This document shows, in pieces, positions 36,406-42,160 of a stretch of 64,000 nucleotides of DNA; within the stretch, counting starts at the first letter, position 1; the number at the start of each line of letters is the position of its first letter. This stretch comes from Prevotella sp. (lineage in GTDB: Bacteria; Bacteroidota; Bacteroidia; Bacteroidales; Bacteroidaceae). Below the pieces are notes generated by a model. The model was given only the letters and a program-made list of their open reading frames with translations, was not told the origin of the DNA and did no database searches. Made by a program: the position numbers and the translations under genes. The stretch is from assembly GCA_017462915.1 (NCBI GenBank), contig JAFTQG010000048.1:1-64000 (forward strand), written 5' to 3'.

Positions 36406-37167
36406 TTACCTACAATCTTTCTCTTTACATTTATCACCTAACATATTGTGATAAACGGATAAAGGGGTCGTGGTCTCTTCTATTCTCAATGCGTGCCTTT
36501 GTATTTTGGGGTTTACTATTGTATCATACTGTATAATATCACGTGACATAATGTTTTGTATTGGTTCTAATGCCAAAGCCATATTGTTCCAGCAAATTGA
36601 ACTATTGTTGTTTACGGAATATACAATCTTTGTGGCGATTGATAATAGTGAGATGATTTTTTGTATCTCACTTTCAATTATAGTTGCACCAGTGGATATG
36701 TTTTGACCACATGAAATTTTAGTATTATCAATGATATTGACATGCATTTGTTCGTCAACACATAAAGCCTTGTATCTATCTTCACTGTCTTTTTCAATGA
36801 AGATACCGCAATAAATAGATGAAATACATAATATTCTATCTAAAGAACCATTAATGACAATGCGCACTACCTTGTCTTTGATTCTATCATGACCATGCTT
36901 TCCCGCATTATCATCAAACTTTGCATAATATACAATATAATCACCTATAGAATCCTTTTCATAAATTAAAGTATGCCCATCTTCAGAATATACATAACAA
37001 TAGCCATTGACATTTGGCGTATATCCTATATAATTCCTTGTCTCAGAACTAACAGAAGGACTGTTCTTCCTGTTGTTACAACCACATACAACCAATAAGA
37101 TTGTCAAAATTATACAGATAAAACCTAAATTCTTCAATTGTGCAGATTTGAGAAACCGACCACCCAA
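36406..37167 (-). CDS. Lipoprotein, last gene of the CXXX peptide operon
   Basis: The frame has 253 residues and an N-terminal signal LKNLGFICIILTILLVVCGC with a possible lipobox (VVCGC). The ATG at 37167 overlaps tatC by 34 bases; a TTG at 37137 overlapping the tatC stop (TTGA) would give a better-shaped signal peptide of about 20 residues. The rest is beta-rich with no motif I recognise. It is AT-rich like its neighbours. As the last gene after tatC it may be a periplasmic partner or immunity-type protein for the exported peptide; this is inference. Confidence 0.65.
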   Translation of the reverse strand: MGGRFLKSAQLKNLGFICIILTILLVVCGCNNRKNSPSVSSETRNYIGYTPNVNGYCYVYSEDGHTLIYEKDSIGDYIVYYAKFDDNAGKHGHDRIKDKVVRIVINGSLDRILCISSIYCGIFIEKDSEDRYKALCVDEQMHVNIIDNTKISCGQNISTGATIIESEIQKIISLLSIATKIVYSVNNNSSICWNNMALALEPIQNIMSRDIIQYDTIVNPKIQRHALRIEETTTPLSVYHNMLGDKCKEKDCR

Positions 37168-37928
37168 ATGCTAACTTCATAAAGGAGATATAGTGGGATT
37201 GTCACAAGAATCAATGTTATTAAATCAGGAGGGGTTATTATAGCGGCAACCAACATTATTATTATCAATGAGTGTTTACGATACTTTCTTAAAATTTTGG
37301 ATGTTAGCAACCCCATTTTCCCAAGGAAGAAAGATACTATGGGCAGTTGGAAGACAACCCCCATTAATAACGTTAGTGTAGTAAACGTTGAAATGTAGGA
37401 ATCAATCGTAATTGTACTATGTATTTTTTCAGCCACACTGTATGTTCCCAAAAACCTGAACGATATAGGGAATAACACATAATAGCTCATCAAAATACCC
37501 AACATAAATAGTATATAGACGATAAATACAATTTGTACCGAATACTTTTTCTCAGTTTCATAAAGAGCGGGAGATATGAAACGGAATAATTCAAACATTA
37601 CATATGGAGAAGCCCCAAGTAACCCAAGATAAAGTGAAGTCGTGATGTGAGTCATAAACTGGCTTGAAAGGTCAGTGGCTATCAAATCGACCTTGAAAGG
37701 AGCAAAATGAAAATCGACTCCAATTGCAGATAAAATACTTTCTATACTTTTGTAGGTACAAAAAGTGTACTCGCTCGGTGCCAGCAACAACTCCCATGTA
37801 AAATTCTTAAAACAGAATATCACAATACCAAGTGTGCTGGCAATAGCAATGATTCGGAAAAGCATCCATCGAAGCACCTCTAAATGTCCGCTGAATGGAA
37901 GCACTGTATTACTTATATCCGTTTCCAT
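37134..37928 (-). CDS. tatC: Sec-independent protein translocase TatC
   Basis: TatC recognises twin-arginine signals and forms the receptor of the Tat pathway in the inner membrane. The 264 residues show FSGHLEVLRWMLFRI (family HLxELRxR region), a periplasmic loop, FELFRFISPALYETEKKYS and six hydrophobic spans. It overlaps tatA by 20 bases and is part of the radical SAM peptide operon, which includes a twin-arginine substrate, so a dedicated Tat system is suggested. The sequence is AT-rich. Confidence 0.93.
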   Translation of the reverse strand: METDISNTVLPFSGHLEVLRWMLFRIIAIASTLGIVIFCFKNFTWELLLAPSEYTFCTYKSIESILSAIGVDFHFAPFKVDLIATDLSSQFMTHITTSLYLGLLGASPYVMFELFRFISPALYETEKKYSVQIVFIVYILFMLGILMSYYVLFPISFRFLGTYSVAEKIHSTITIDSYISTFTTLTLLMGVVFQLPIVSFFLGKMGLLTSKILRKYRKHSLIIIMLVAAIITPPDLITLILVTIPLYLLYEVSIWVVGFSNLHN

Positions 37929-38163
37929 CTATTTCCTTATTTGATGTCTCCGCTTTCTTACTTTCTTCAGTATCTTCGCCATCTGCTTTTGTGTCCTTAT
38001 TGTCAGATTCGTTAATTTCATTAACTCCTTTTTTAAATTCCCTTACACCTTGTCCCAGACCACGCATCATTTCTGGCAGTTTTTTCCCACCAAAGAGCAA
38101 AAGTGCAAGACCTCCTACTAACAGGAGTTCTGTTGTTCCGATAAATAATAATTGTGTATGCAT
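37909..38163 (-). CDS. tatA: Sec-independent protein translocase TatA
   Basis: The 84-residue protein has an N-terminal span (LLFIGTTELLLVGGLALLLF) followed by the Gly-Lys-Lys-Leu-Pro motif GGKKLPEMMRGLGQGVREFK, an amphipathic helix and an acidic/Lys tail, as in TatA. It forms the pore with TatC. It lies 5 bases after the 91-residue accessory gene. No TatB-like gene is present, which is usual for Bacteroidetes TatAC systems. Confidence 0.93.
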   Translation of the reverse strand: MHTQLLFIGTTELLLVGGLALLLFGGKKLPEMMRGLGQGVREFKKGVNEINESDNKDTKADGEDTEESKKAETSNKEIDGNGYK

Positions 38164-38168
38164 ATTGT

Positions 38169-38444
38169 TTATTGAGTTACCAAATAGATTTCACATGTCT
38201 CAAAGCTTATTTGCCATCTACCGTCTTCGGCTGATTCCCAGTTGTATTTTTCCCCTTTCTTGTTCCACCAATCTTGAAATTTTGTATTGGTTTCACCTAA
38301 GTCACATACAACTTTTTCATAGAGCTCAACATTGTCAGCAGAAACAATCTTTGCCAAATCTACCAAGCCAGAATGACGCTTGTAGAGTTTTTGTATCTCG
38401 TCACGTTCTTCGAGAGTGACGATTCCAACTTTTTTCTTTACCAT
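38169..38444 (-). CDS. Small accessory protein of the CXXX-repeat peptide system
   Basis: The 91-residue, charged cytoplasmic protein has MVKKKVGIVTLEERDEIQKL and a WWNKKGEKYNWESAEDGRWQ stretch. It lacks a signal and metal motifs. Its size and position, between the second maturase and tatA, match what I recall as the family named CXXX repeat peptide modification system protein. Its role, perhaps precursor recognition or chaperoning, is unproven. Spacing is 5 bases on both sides. Confidence 0.7.
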   Translation of the reverse strand: MVKKKVGIVTLEERDEIQKLYKRHSGLVDLAKIVSADNVELYEKVVCDLGETNTKFQDWWNKKGEKYNWESAEDGRWQISFETCEIYLVTQ

Positions 38445-38449
38445 ATTAT

Positions 38450-39415
38450 TTATATTTTATGCCAATCAATTCTTACGTCATAAGGGTCAAGATAATTGAT
38501 TTCTTTAATATCTTGTTCAGGATAGAAATCCTTTTTTTTCCTCACATTTTCCAGTACTTTGCGGCTGGAGTTCCGTTCGATATGAGATAGAACACATTGT
38601 TCGTGACTTGGTGTCGTTATGTCGTATGTCATATTTCTATTAAGCCAAACACAACGTTTACACTGGTAAGCATCACAATTCCTGCACAGAGGAGCATATT
38701 GTAATTTATATAGATGGGCAGCTTTTATGGATAAACCATCATGTAAATTACCCACATTGAATATTTCTTTATCTTCCTCTGAATAATAGAATGCGGGGCA
38801 AATATAAAACCTGCCATCTGGAGCCAATGTGATATTGTTGCATCCTGCATTGCAATTGTTCATTTGCGTCAAAGCAATGCGGTCTGTTATAACATTTAGC
38901 TGAGGAGAAAGACCTGCTTTATACAAGCATTCTATTTCTTCGCCTAAAATGTCTATGACATTCTCGTATTTTTGAAAATCCTCATCCTTTAATGTGTCTA
39001 TATCAGTTATAACGATATTTAATCGTTGGATTTTTTTTATAAACCCTTTAATTGTATATCTTTGTGCGAAAAGTTCTTCTTTGGAGATACGCAAGACACA
39101 GGGTGATGGATAATCTGATGTGTTATCAACAAGTTCTTTCCAATCATTAAACACAACAACATCTGCTCCCTGAGCTAAAGGAGATGTTGAAGGTATAATC
39201 TTTGAGTGGTCTATTGTCTCTATTACTTGCTTATATTTTTGAGGAATATCACTTTCGGGATAAACGAATTGAATCATAAGATTTTGCTTCATCGCAAATC
39301 TTATACCTGCCTTCAAATTACCAAAATCTATTAGGCGTTGGTTCTTGTTCCTTACTTCGTAGTGACAATATGACGTACTGCTGTCACCTAATAATATTAT
39401 AAGATATTGTAACAT
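38450..39415 (-). CDS. CXXX-repeat peptide maturase, SPASM-like without radical SAM motif
   Basis: The 321-residue protein lacks the CxxxCxxC that binds the radical SAM cluster. It has a C-terminal SPASM-like cysteine set: NNCNAGCNNITLAPDGRFYICPAF, CRNCDAYQCKRCVWL and HEQCVLSHIERN. This could bind auxiliary iron-sulfur clusters. It matches, from memory, the family named CXXX repeat peptide maturase. It starts 3 bases after the radical SAM gene and may work with it as a heteromer. Confidence 0.75.
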   Translation of the reverse strand: MLQYLIILLGDSSTSYCHYEVRNKNQRLIDFGNLKAGIRFAMKQNLMIQFVYPESDIPQKYKQVIETIDHSKIIPSTSPLAQGADVVVFNDWKELVDNTSDYPSPCVLRISKEELFAQRYTIKGFIKKIQRLNIVITDIDTLKDEDFQKYENVIDILGEEIECLYKAGLSPQLNVITDRIALTQMNNCNAGCNNITLAPDGRFYICPAFYYSEEDKEIFNVGNLHDGLSIKAAHLYKLQYAPLCRNCDAYQCKRCVWLNRNMTYDITTPSHEQCVLSHIERNSSRKVLENVRKKKDFYPEQDIKEINYLDPYDVRIDWHKI

Positions 39416-39418
39416 ATT

Positions 39419-40591
39419 TTAGCAAATTTCATTTTTAGGAATAGGGCGGTTTGCCTCAAATTGCTCTCGCTTACCTTCCAACTCTAGTTTGCGATAAAGT
39501 TTGTTCCAGTAATAATTATTAACTCTCACTTGTGCTTTGTGCATTTTGCAAATTGCTGTGGCACGTTGATATACTGTGGGAATCTCTGCTGTGTCATAAT
39601 TTTCTCCTTGACACCATGCACAGCCACTTGCAACCTCACAGTCTATACACTTTTGTGGGCTTTGAGTACAACGGTCAAGTAGTAAAAACGGACGAAGTTT
39701 GTTCGGGTCAATGCCACGATTAACATCACCAATTATCCAAGCCTTTTTGTCTCGAAGAGAGTATTGTGCAAAACGAGTACAAGGATAAAAATTACCTCCA
39801 GCATCAACTGAAAGCATTCTTCCAGCACCGCACCAATTATTATTGCGCTTTATAGGATCCAGTGGCTTTCCAATTCTCTCATCAAAGAAGGAACATGTAT
39901 AATCTTTATAATATCCTTTATCAATAATCTCATCTGCAAGCATTTCAAGTTGTTCTTCAAAAAGAATGTCATCACCTTCCTTAAAAACATCTTCAAATAC
40001 ACAGTTAATATGTACTTCATGTATTCCCAATTTATACACGTGCATTACGCTTTCTTTTATGTATGGGATGTCCGCACTACTAATCGTGATTTTTGTGCCA
40101 ACGGTTGGGAATTGTTCAAGCCATAGAGGAATATTTTTTAAAACATCCCTGTATGAGCCTTTTCCACTTCCTTTGTATATTCTATTTAGGTCGTGCTTCC
40201 TTTCTGTGCCATCTATTGTAATAGTAATGCTTAAATGATCTTTATTCTTTGCAATATAATTCTGAATCTTATTGCTATTGTAGTTTAGACCATTAGTCGT
40301 GAAAGAGAAAATATAGTCATTAAACCAATGATGATTTCGGATAAACATTTCCGATTTGATATAGTCACATATTCTGTCAATCAAATCGATTTCCAAAAAT
40401 GGCTCTCCACCGATGAAGTCCCATATTACTCCTTCATCTTGGAAGTCACTTTCGTGATCAAGGATATAATCAACAGCCGATTTTGCAACATCCCATGTCA
40501 TTCTCTCTTTGTTGTTTTTCCCAACAAGATAACAGTATTTGCAGGCTAATTGACAATCCTTTGTAACGATAAAAGTTATTGATTTTTTCAT
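39419..40591 (-). CDS. Radical SAM-SPASM peptide maturase
   Basis: The 390-residue enzyme has the radical SAM motif CQLACKYCYLVG (CxxxCxxC) at about residue 13-24, the GGEPFLEIDLI motif 2 (about 67) and a C-terminal SPASM domain with WCGAGRMLSVDAGGNFYPC, CTQSPQKCIDCEVASGCAWC and ATAICKMHKAQ, enough ligands for auxiliary clusters. Such enzymes cross-link cysteine thiols to carbons in precursor peptides. With the ten-cysteine precursor gene immediately upstream it fits the CXXX-repeat-target radical SAM family. The product is inferred. Confidence 0.9.
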   Translation of the reverse strand: MKKSITFIVTKDCQLACKYCYLVGKNNKERMTWDVAKSAVDYILDHESDFQDEGVIWDFIGGEPFLEIDLIDRICDYIKSEMFIRNHHWFNDYIFSFTTNGLNYNSNKIQNYIAKNKDHLSITITIDGTERKHDLNRIYKGSGKGSYRDVLKNIPLWLEQFPTVGTKITISSADIPYIKESVMHVYKLGIHEVHINCVFEDVFKEGDDILFEEQLEMLADEIIDKGYYKDYTCSFFDERIGKPLDPIKRNNNWCGAGRMLSVDAGGNFYPCTRFAQYSLRDKKAWIIGDVNRGIDPNKLRPFLLLDRCTQSPQKCIDCEVASGCAWCQGENYDTAEIPTVYQRATAICKMHKAQVRVNNYYWNKLYRKLELEGKREQFEANRPIPKNEIC

Positions 40592-40609
40592 TTGCTTGGA
40601 GTCTTTATT

Positions 40610-40643
40610 AGAGGGTATGTAAAAGACGCATTACACACCCTCT
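40610..40643 (-). promoter_or_regulatory. Hairpin between precursor and maturase genes
   Basis: AGAGGGTATGTAA (40610-40622) and TTACACACCCTCT (40631-40643) form a 13-bp stem with one G-U pair. It lies in the 68-base spacer between the precursor and radical SAM genes. No T-run follows, so it may only attenuate the transcript or protect the precursor mRNA, letting the peptide exceed the enzyme. Confidence 0.65.
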
Positions 40644-40659
40644 AAACCTTTAATTAGGA

Positions 40660-40941
40660 TTAACTCTTGTACTTTGATTCACAGTAAGCCCAGCAGTCAC
40701 CGCCACACAAGCCGTCACAGTTGTTAGTGCAACCACCATCGCAGTCACCAGAGCAGGAAGACTGGCAGCCACCTGTACACTTAGAGCTACAACCCTTTTC
40801 ATCATCATCATCATCGCCACAGGACGTGAGGAAAGATGTTCCCAACACTGTGAATGCCAAAATAGGCAAAGCACCCTTGGCGGCATTCTTGAAGAACTCT
40901 CTTCTTGACAGGAGATCTTCATTCTTAATTTCTTTTTTCAT
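40660..40941 (-). CDS. CXXX-repeat peptide precursor with twin-arginine signal and lipobox
   Basis: From the ATG at 40941 the peptide has 93 residues; the ATG at 40965 is less likely. A twin-arginine signal, SRREFFKNAAKGALPILAF (12-30), is followed by LTSC (38-41), a possible lipobox. A GDDDDDEKG linker leads to ten cysteines at residues 51, 55, 59, 63, 67, 71, 75, 79, 83 and 87, exactly every fourth position, with Gly, Ser, Asp and Asn between. It is the substrate expected for the adjacent radical SAM enzyme. Confidence 0.9.
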   Translation of the reverse strand: MKKEIKNEDLLSRREFFKNAAKGALPILAFTVLGTSFLTSCGDDDDDEKGCSSKCTGGCQSSCSGDCDGGCTNNCDGLCGGDCWAYCESKYKS

Positions 40942-40979
40942 TGATCTAAAAATTAAATTTGACAATATGCCTTTCGGCG

Positions 40980-41660
40980 TTATTTGATAATCTCAATAAA
41001 ATCAGTAGGAATATACGCAGTAGCAACAAGACACAATCCGGAAATCTCAACAACAATTCTTTGCTGTCCTGCTATTCTGGCAACTTTGCCTACTACACCT
41101 TTGAAATCACCTGCTATTACCCGAACATTATCTCCATGTTTATAGTGACACTGTTCCGATGTAACGATGCGCACATGGTCACTGTCAGTGCTCGTTGCTT
41201 TGATAAAATTTATCATTGCATTGTATGGTATAATAAGCGGAGGATTTTTACCGTTTGCCTCTGGTGGAAGCGTTTTGTCCAAATAATATTTGATAAAAGA
41301 GGTAGGCTCATCAACTGTCTTCTTCACAAAAAAATCTGCTTGTTCCCTTGTAGCATATATAAAAAGAAAGTTGGGAAGAAGAGGCTGTTGTATTCGCTTC
41401 TTCTTCCCAGCTATTACTTTTTGCACATAGTGCATCGGCACGTATGTCTTTATTCCAGTCTTCTTTGCTTTCTCTACAGCTGCATTTACCCTGTTATAAG
41501 TAGCACGAAGAACAAACCAGTCGTGACCATCCTGCTGGACATATTCCGAGGACACCCCTGTTTGTGAGCTTTGGGCTTCGGGGGAGACATAGGAGGCAAA
41601 TCCAATGTGAGGAGGTGAATCGCAACCTCGTTTGGTATGCGCATTAAGCAATGCGTTCAT
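40980..41660 (-). CDS. NusG/UpxY-type transcription antiterminator
   Basis: The protein has an N-terminal NusG domain (WFVLRATYNRVNAAVEKAKK, LLPNFLFIYATREQADFF) and a C-terminal KOW domain with GDNVRVIAGDFKGVVGKVAR. This is the layout of UpxY-like NusG paralogues, which let polymerase read through long operons. The open frame reaches 41897, but I prefer 41660 (MNALLNAHTKR, 226 residues); 41702 is possible. It lies 38 bases before the precursor ATG, so it probably controls the CXXX operon. The usual polysaccharide genes are absent. Confidence 0.85.
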   Translation of the reverse strand: MNALLNAHTKRGCDSPPHIGFASYVSPEAQSSQTGVSSEYVQQDGHDWFVLRATYNRVNAAVEKAKKTGIKTYVPMHYVQKVIAGKKKRIQQPLLPNFLFIYATREQADFFVKKTVDEPTSFIKYYLDKTLPPEANGKNPPLIIPYNAMINFIKATSTDSDHVRIVTSEQCHYKHGDNVRVIAGDFKGVVGKVARIAGQQRIVVEISGLCLVATAYIPTDFIEIIK

Positions 41661-42160
41661 ATCGGCTTCTGTGTCGTTGCTCGTTAATAGCAATATAGAC
41701 ATAAAAAGAGCGTGGAAACGTCTGTTGTCCGTCCCACACACTGAGGCTCTCGCATTGCCTATTATAGTTGAACAGACAACGTCAGAGCCCACGCCGATAT
41801 GAATAATCATTTCCATTAGGAGACCATAATAAACAATCATTGTGCCCGAAAAGGTACAATCCGTGCTTACAGGTCTCCGCAGGAGTGATATAATCACACC
41901 CGGGACATCTACCGTTGGCTTTGTTCAAGACTATAATGCACTTTCATTTGCGAGATTCCAGTGTGTCTCAAACACAGCGTAAAGTAAACGCCTTCAATAT
42001 GTCTGGACTATCTTTCCCGCCCAATGCCCGCTTTGTACCGCTTTGTCATTATGACTCCGCCATACTCATCACGGCGTAGGCTGCCTTGTATGCCATCCTG
42101 AAAGAACACGTCTAACCTCGATGACTATAAGCAGGGCGATAATAGTCCGTTGCAAAAGTA
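41661..42160 (-). promoter_or_regulatory. Promoter and long leader of the antiterminator/CXXX operon
   Basis: On the minus strand TACTTTTG at 42153-42160 is a good -7 box. The next likely start is near 41660, leaving a leader of about 480 bases, long enough for antiterminator recruitment. It holds small inverted repeats (CTCC/GGAG at 41875-41885; GTGAT/ATCAC at 41885-41897) but no strong terminator that I can see. No -33 TTTG is at the right distance. Confidence 0.5.

Follow-up and report, generated by a model that had tools for sequence, protein, structure and literature searches.

Peptide systems in which cysteine recurs at every fourth residue are catalogued in NCBIfam as the CXXX-repeat systems (TIGR04114-TIGR04119), families which reportedly go back to Haft and Basu in 2011. 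Here we describe a locus with the same families of radical S-adenosylmethionine (SAM) maturase, SPASM partner and accessory protein in Prevotella sp., on a 64,000-nucleotide stretch of DNA (assembly GCA_017462915.1, contig JAFTQG010000048.1, positions 1 to 64,000; hereafter the window). It differs from the catalogued systems in that its precursor stays below the TIGR04117 cut-off and in what it adds, namely TatA and TatC genes of the twin-arginine translocation (Tat) system within the operon, a lipobox and an acidic run. The open literature that we searched held no description of a CXXX-repeat peptide product, and no mention of 'CXXX repeat' with 'radical SAM' or of TIGR04115. By the titles and abstract starts of the papers listed, it held no description of a Tat-coupled variant, which is not proof of novelty as most subscription papers lie outside it, and a survey of Bacteroidales ribosomally synthesised and post-translationally modified peptides (RiPPs; PMC10352776) has neither CXXX, twin-arginine, TatC nor TatA in its main text. 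The maturation family is already catalogued; the Tat-coupled variant was described in none of the literature listings examined.

RiPPs usually leave the cell through ABC transporters or, in some families, through Sec. In the maturation of quinohemoprotein amine dehydrogenase (by QhpD, QhpE and QhpF), a radical SAM enzyme forms thioethers while the protein is in the cytoplasm, and an ABC transporter then exports it; one relative of our locus shares a QhpE-like S8 protease with this pathway (below cut-off), whereas the window's product is predicted to leave by Tat. The ranthipeptides PapB/PapA likewise have repeated Cys motifs with a period of four, and PapB is the characterised family that scores next after TIGR04115 against the window's maturase. 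PapA links Cys to Asp or Glu in CX3D/E motifs (PMC9413430, PMC10470005), and the accessible part of PMC9413430 mentions no Tat signal. The window's maturase reaches 193.8 bits against the PapB family NF047865 (cut-off 340), and position +4 after a Cys is usually another Cys here, so CX3D/E motifs are as a rule absent from the cores and PapB-type CX3D chemistry does not fit. Bufferins, as described in the accessible part of PMC12452194, are Cys-containing RiPPs with signal peptides, some of them predicted lipoproteins, and in this they resemble the window's precursor, but they use MNIO enzymes and Sec export, and the MNIO family is absent from the matches of the eight window proteins. Csp1 is Tat-exported, as is predicted for the window's precursor, and like it Cys-rich; the accessible part of PMC7558416 mentions no maturase for it, and the window's precursor matched no Pfam family at E ≤ 1.

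A CXXX-repeat locus with its own Tat genes

The precursor with its Tat signal, the maturase, its pseudo-radical-SAM partner, the accessory protein, TatA and TatC form one block of predicted genes on the minus strand, and this block recurs in relatives. The precursor (40660-40941; 93 residues) matches TIGR04117 with an E-value of 5.6e-12 and is followed by the radical SAM/SPASM peptide maturase (39419-40591; TIGR04115, 611.4 bits, cut-off 350), the SPASM partner (38450-39415; TIGR04119, 230.7 bits, cut-off 150), the accessory protein (38169-38444; TIGR04116, 88.4 bits, cut-off 50), TatA (37909-38163; TIGR01411, 60.6 bits, cut-off 53.9), which starts 5 bp after the accessory gene, and TatC (37134-37928; TIGR00945, 154.4 bits, cut-off 132.7), which overlaps tatA by 20 bp. 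An UpxY-type antiterminator upstream and a lipoprotein downstream complete a run of eight genes from 41897 to 36406, six of whose proteins (UpxY and the five from the maturase to TatC) exceed curated cut-offs. A reading of this DNA from its sequence only had proposed this eight-gene operon, and both the coordinates and the families hold. It had also attributed the genes to named database families, which is true of the maturase, the SPASM partner and the accessory protein; the precursor scores 45.6 bits against a TIGR04117 cut-off of 50 and is therefore not filed as a trusted member. With three curated CXXX-repeat cut-offs exceeded and a Cys at every fourth residue, the operon is, judged by its sequence, a CXXX-repeat radical SAM peptide system.

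Relatives were collected by a scan of 295 genomes of the order Bacteroidales, in which TIGR04119 was matched in 11 and above cut-off in 7, including the window's own genome, and by searching genome contigs with six aligned maturases, which gave 345 relatives; the best 80 of these were kept with flanks of up to 10 kb. These 80, five loci from the order-scan genomes and the window make up 86 loci; kept out were a locus with a fused maturase and no TatA or TatC (L021) and a second locus of the window's own genome which carries both Tat genes and is cut by a contig edge (L019). By record title, 75 of the best 80 are Bacteroidota (3 as Candidatus), 3 are Clostridia and 2 have titles that name no clear group, and many titles name animal gut samples.

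In most of the 86 loci one or more precursors are followed by the maturase, the SPASM partner, the accessory gene, tatA and tatC, in that order. Where at least 4 kb downstream of the maturase was available (72 loci), the SPASM partner and the accessory gene were always present (72/72 each), and TatA and TatC were each found in 66/72. In all 75 loci where tatA and the accessory gene were both found, tatA follows on the same strand within 3 kb of the accessory gene, in 69 of them within 60 bp, and tatC follows tatA in 74/74 (72 within 60 bp). Between one and six precursor frames occur per locus, with none in one locus that is cut just before the maturase, and 43/86 loci hold two to six divergent precursors. 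The system is thus well conserved among close relatives and is a Tat-coupled variant of a catalogued kind. In the flanks of 13/86 loci we also observed, by eye, a 70-residue protein resembling a helix-turn-helix regulator (e.g., L061:13752-13964), for which Pfam gave no match at E ≤ 0.1.

Precursor and maturation enzymes

The precursor reads ...LLSRREFFKNAAKGALPILAFTVLGTSFLTSC-GDDDDDEKG, followed by ten Cys at an exact spacing of four. Its parts, all on the minus strand, are the Tat signal and presumed RiPP leader (SRREFFKNAAKGALPILAFTVLGTSFLTS; 40822-40908), in which the twin-arginine motif SRREFFK precedes a hydrophobic stretch, the lipobox cysteine C41 of FLTSC (40819-40821), the GDDDDDE run as a candidate lipoprotein export signal (LES; 40798-40818), and the ten-cysteine array (40681-40791). 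The twin-arginine signal, the lipobox LTSC and the ten regularly spaced Cys had all been named in the sequence-only reading and are plain in the sequence, and none of 100,000 shuffles of the mature core reproduced a run of ten Cys spaced four apart. A profile search recovered 163 precursor open reading frames (159 distinct), 152 of them with RRx[FLIVM] near the start, and among the distinct frames 2368 of 2686 Cys intervals (88%) are exactly four and 171 are three, so the spacing noted earlier is conserved in homologues. Between the Cys, the first position is variable, and G, S and T fill most of the second and third. TIGR04117 was matched at E ≤ 0.01 by 117 of the 119 homologous precursors scanned. 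The largest core has 74 Cys, the precursor of L035 carries a non-array domain between two Cys arrays, and the shorter precursor of L039 gave a weak Lcl_C match. Against its nearest relatives the window's precursor has a non-synonymous divergence (dN) of 0.08-0.14, with synonymous divergence (dS) saturated in three of four pairs and 1.6 in the fourth.

As the precursor profile includes the leader, we rescanned blind to it. Among 148 stop-to-stop frames with at least six Cys spaced exactly four, 140 had RRx[FLIVM][FLIVM] upstream in frame; inspected by eye, the remaining eight comprise three apparently spurious antisense frames, one cut by a contig end, three that seem truncated or parts of a longer protein, and one with the RR split from the rest of the leader. 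In 149 precursors, F at +3 and F at +4 are each present in 99%, K at +5 in 90%, L at +12 in 90% and P at +13 in 93%, where RR and one of FLIVM at +3 were selection criteria and the other columns were not. The conservation of the FF pair and of L-P at +12/+13 goes beyond the demands of the general Tat consensus, and the leader therefore probably also serves the maturase.

The lipid anchor proposed in the sequence-only reading fits the window's precursor, with its Tat lipoprotein signal, and is not supported as a general feature: a strict lipobox occurs in 34 of the 152 RR precursors and a looser rule finds 42. In these 34, D or E stands at +4 in 74% and at +5 in 68%, compared with 5% in the cores, and at least two acids at +3 to +7 occur in 25/34, as opposed to 29/118 of the other precursors over a matched stretch. 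K at +3 is found in 19/34, several of which read CSKDD or CSKDE, while the window reads CGDDDDDE. According to the accessible part of PMC5080379, the optimal surface signal in Capnocytophaga is C-X-K-(D/E)2-X, and SDDDD, the hypothesised LES consensus of B. fragilis, was active when tested in Capnocytophaga. FLTSC-GDDDDDE in the window combines the lipobox and acidic LES by which surface lipoproteins of Bacteroidetes are recognised. With acidic residues following the lipid cysteine, display on the cell surface looks more likely than simple attachment to a membrane, which takes the earlier proposal a step further as a prediction of moderate strength.

For the maturase, the match to the SCIFF thioether maturase (E 3.5e-30) is, like that to PapB, below cut-off. 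The SPASM-only protein had been counted as a second maturase. Its invariant columns comprise one N-terminal Cys (C17) and seven more in the SPASM part, and with just one N-terminal Cys kept it has no CX3CX2C. Its structural model (mean predicted local distance difference test score, pLDDT, 89) matched a thioether enzyme (5why/5wgg, E 3.4e-10) and anSME (4k39, E 2.8e-7) in Foldseek, and it is best read, from this model, as a pseudo-radical-SAM partner. The accessory protein is modelled (pLDDT 92) as a beta-alpha-alpha-beta-beta fold, which we compared with the winged-helix fold of the RiPP recognition element, and its model had no match in the PDB at E ≤ 0.001.

Proposed export by Tat and the rival explanations

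The window's genome has three TatC genes: that of the window, one in the edge-cut second CXXX locus and one standalone (L020). Near the standalone gene lies a protein with a Tat signal, which we take to be an aldo/keto reductase. The second locus (contig C51, 1-2573) has its own TatA and TatC, and upstream of its SPASM gene a few codons resembling radical SAM sequence give way to unrelated sequence; the gene is broken there, or the assembly has joined two pieces. TatC was found in all 36 other genomes examined, most of them drafts, and in 246 of the 295 Bacteroidales genomes. With the label of L148 corrected, 21 of the 36 have operon and standalone copies, 8 an operon copy only and 7 a standalone copy only, the last being the genomes of the six loci without TatA and TatC and that of L021. 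In a TatC tree of 104 rows (one mislabelled), for which the program warned of long branches, the operon label needs 5 changes compared with 26.4 when shuffled, and most operon rows form one clade. A second tree of 94 rows, without the long or distant rows and the mislabelled copy, needs 2 changes and has an operon clade of 61 rows (support 100/99, from a bootstrap that had not settled) with the window's TatC inside and L020 apart. The sequence-only reading's claim that the locus has its own Tat system is thus upheld by the presence of both Tat genes in 66/72 loci, the mostly separate operon clade and the RR motif in 140/148 array frames. As a separate observation, L031 has a maturase 90% identical to that of the window, and its operon TatC pairs in the first tree with the TatC of L069, outside the main operon clade; subject to the long-branch warning, this may be a sign that the Tat genes were swapped.

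We consider it probable that this is a RiPP-like system whose Tat signal serves at the same time as leader for maturation, with maturation in the cytoplasm, export through a dedicated Tat translocase, lipidation and surface display. The radical SAM enzyme, its pseudo-radical-SAM partner and the accessory protein would act on the Cys array while it is still in the cytoplasm, and the likeliest modification is the formation of thioethers that join Cys to nearby residues. The product would then leave through the dedicated TatA and TatC, since a modified peptide could no longer thread through Sec. In the window and in about a fifth of precursors it would be lipidated at the lipobox Cys and carried by the acidic run to the outer surface of the outer membrane, while precursors without a lipobox would be cut by signal peptidase I and released. 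The end product may be a rigid, cross-linked rod that serves as a structural part of the cell surface, in contrast to a small antibiotic that diffuses away. A structural or displayed role is favoured by the cores of up to 74 Cys, the domain between the arrays in L035, the constraint on the precursor and the phage-tail neighbours described below. Genomic context supports the export step well, and the chemistry, lipidation, surface exposure and function are what we infer from it and from the sequences.

Several results weigh against this reading or narrow it. Most precursors lack the lipobox, and the acid enrichment is only moderately above that of generic flanking lipoproteins (25/34 vs 7/21; Fisher p 0.005). 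A genome scan at E ≤ 1 with the Tat signal model TIGR01409 gave only two weak matches, with the window's precursor not among them. TatA and TatC are absent from 6/72 loci though the precursors there carry RR, hence a dedicated translocase is not strictly required; L021, above the family cut-off, also lacks them, and counting it gives 66/73. Furthermore, the operon TatC is not one single clade, as ten rows group with two standalone rows in the 94-row tree and the operon rows L023, L031 and L069 took other positions in the first tree and do not figure in the second. Lastly, the named loci are the best 80 of 345, so the association with Tat applies to close relatives only.

Of the competing accounts, the one nearest to our own accepts the export and differs in the chemistry: in place of thioethers, the enzyme would form carbon-carbon links, epimerise residues or, as anSME does, turn Cys into formylglycine. 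In its favour, the fold of the pseudo-radical-SAM partner is matched by both anSME and the thioether enzyme, no fixed acceptor follows each Cys and the PapB CX3D pattern is absent as a rule. However, the maturase scores next best with the thioether-forming PapB family and also matches the SCIFF thioether maturase, even if both fall below cut-off, and we regard another reaction as doubtful if possible. On function, the main rival is metal storage or scavenging, in which Tat exports a Cys-rich chelator and the radical SAM enzyme only tunes a few thiols. It gains from the precedents of Csp1-type proteins, which carry Tat signals and of which Csp1 binds 13 Cu(I) per monomer (PMC7558416), and of bufferins, which are exported copper-chelating RiPPs with predicted lipoprotein signals in ~16% of Buf2 (PMC12452194), as far as the accessible parts of these sources go. 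Yet the G, S and T that fill most positions between Cys are not expected in a helical bundle, the precursor had no Pfam match at E ≤ 1 (a search that included no dedicated Csp model), and visual inspection of the 25 most widespread neighbour clusters, four of which were scanned, showed no recognisable metal pump or sensor. We therefore rate metal handling as unlikely.

Secretion of the product for signalling or as an antimicrobial, known from RiPPs of many Cys-rich radical SAM families, would account for the several divergent precursors in half of the loci (43/86) and their variable cores, which suggest diversification, and the version without Tat in Anaerococcus has as its neighbour a class III lanthipeptide locus with an ABC transporter. 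But a lipid anchor and arrays with as many as 74 Cys are hard to square with a diffusible antibiotic, the window's core is strongly conserved among its nearest relatives, and by eye the 25 neighbour clusters listed include no recurrent immunity gene or leader protease, so we find this quite improbable. That TatA and TatC are chance neighbours, or duplicates of a general translocase with no special link to the precursor, appears very improbable: the six loci without them and the wide occurrence of TatC among Bacteroidales genomes speak for such an account, whereas their same place in 66/72 loci, the mostly separate clade and their presence in addition to a standalone TatC in 21/36 genomes run counter to it.

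Local additions, distant versions and implications

The antiterminator and the lipoprotein, which the sequence-only reading had included in the system, are local additions outside the conserved part; UpxY was detected in 3 loci and the lipoprotein in 4, the window counted in both. The UpxY frame (40980-41897, minus strand; NF033644, 129.5 bits, cut-off 100) is homologous only from residue 127 on, that is over ~40980-41520. Upstream, 41520-42160 is a long leader, untranslated or poorly coding, which runs from TACTTTTGC (42160-42152), presumably promoter-like by the Bacteroides -7 consensus, to the homologous part of UpxY, and an Rfam scan of it gave no match at E ≤ 0.1. For the lipoprotein (36406-37137, minus strand), the TTG at 37137, which overlaps the tatC stop, is a likelier start than 37167. 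No NCBIfam family matched this protein at E ≤ 1, Pfam gave one weak match below cut-off, and its homologues among the loci examined are confined to L032, L033 and L034. At the nucleotide level, the window resembles the stretches fetched of L031-L034 and L037 only within 36858-40950.

More distant versions are built differently. In L021, from a genome of the same order, and on plasmid pAPRE01 of Anaerococcus prevotii, the maturase is fused to the pseudo-radical-SAM partner, and neither the 18 kb stretch of the former nor the 10.4 kb stretch of the latter, which starts at the first base of the plasmid record and covers the downstream side only, holds any Tat gene or any precursor with RR. Both loci encode an ABC transporter. 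Besides it, L021 has the S8 protease, for which QhpE is the best match (111 bits, cut-off 165), and a TIGR04118-like precursor (33.4, cut-off 35); on the plasmid, a 56-residue peptide with CKLMCVHTCRYSC is presumed to be the precursor. As both pair an ABC transporter with RR-less precursors, export route and leader appear to switch together while the Cys spacing stays, on two examples only. The fused maturase on the plasmid (L170, 44-2517) is accompanied by a short peptide that resembles, by eye, the start of the accessory protein; the locus adjoins a class III lanthipeptide cluster with an ABC transporter, and the plasmid is typed as conjugative.

Relatives also occur in phage sequences. In IMG/VR contigs L112:5412-11278 (L111 at the same coordinates) and L113:3-7212, a Cys-array protein of 397-464 residues without a Tat signal adjoins tail or tail-fibre genes (PHROGs), followed by the maturase, and the two maturases scanned, of L112 and L113, exceed the TIGR04115 cut-off of 350 with 514 and 483 bits. 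In the L113 maturase (795 residues) the TIGR04115 match falls in two stretches and residues 378-512 match an RNR model, a possible sign of an intein. The jumbo phage pEa_SNUABM_43 of Erwinia (L171:3121-7308) has three Cys-array frames of 133, 133 and 71 residues from stop to stop, with 21, 20 and 4 Cys, upstream of two annotated radical SAM genes, with one hypothetical gene in between, and near a putative virion structural gene. Maturase relatives were found in 80 phage records, 79 of them less than 60% identical, and in the unannotated Bacteriophage sp. MT835573.1 (L172:6435-9122) a 197-residue Cys-array frame with 22 Cys precedes a maturase relative that is 33% identical to that of the window.

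A broader idea, which we put forward tentatively and think rather less probable than the account of the window given above, is that CXXX arrays are encoded, enzymatically cross-linked rods for display, with one maturation core and three outlets: Tat with lipoprotein surface export in Bacteroidales, where the Tat signal would double as leader, ABC export in other systems, and phage virion tails. If the Tat signal doubles as a RiPP leader, proofreading by Tat would pick out the matured rods for surface display.

A group of Bacteroidales thus pairs radical SAM peptide modification with Tat genes of its own and, in part, with a surface-lipoprotein signal. If our reading is true, these loci would offer a first handle on CXXX-repeat peptides, a natural model for the surface display of cross-linked peptides and a way to ask directly whether a RiPP modification can be proofread by Tat. 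For comparison, the accessible part of PMC11048544 describes an artificial use of Tat, for the display of nisin on phage.

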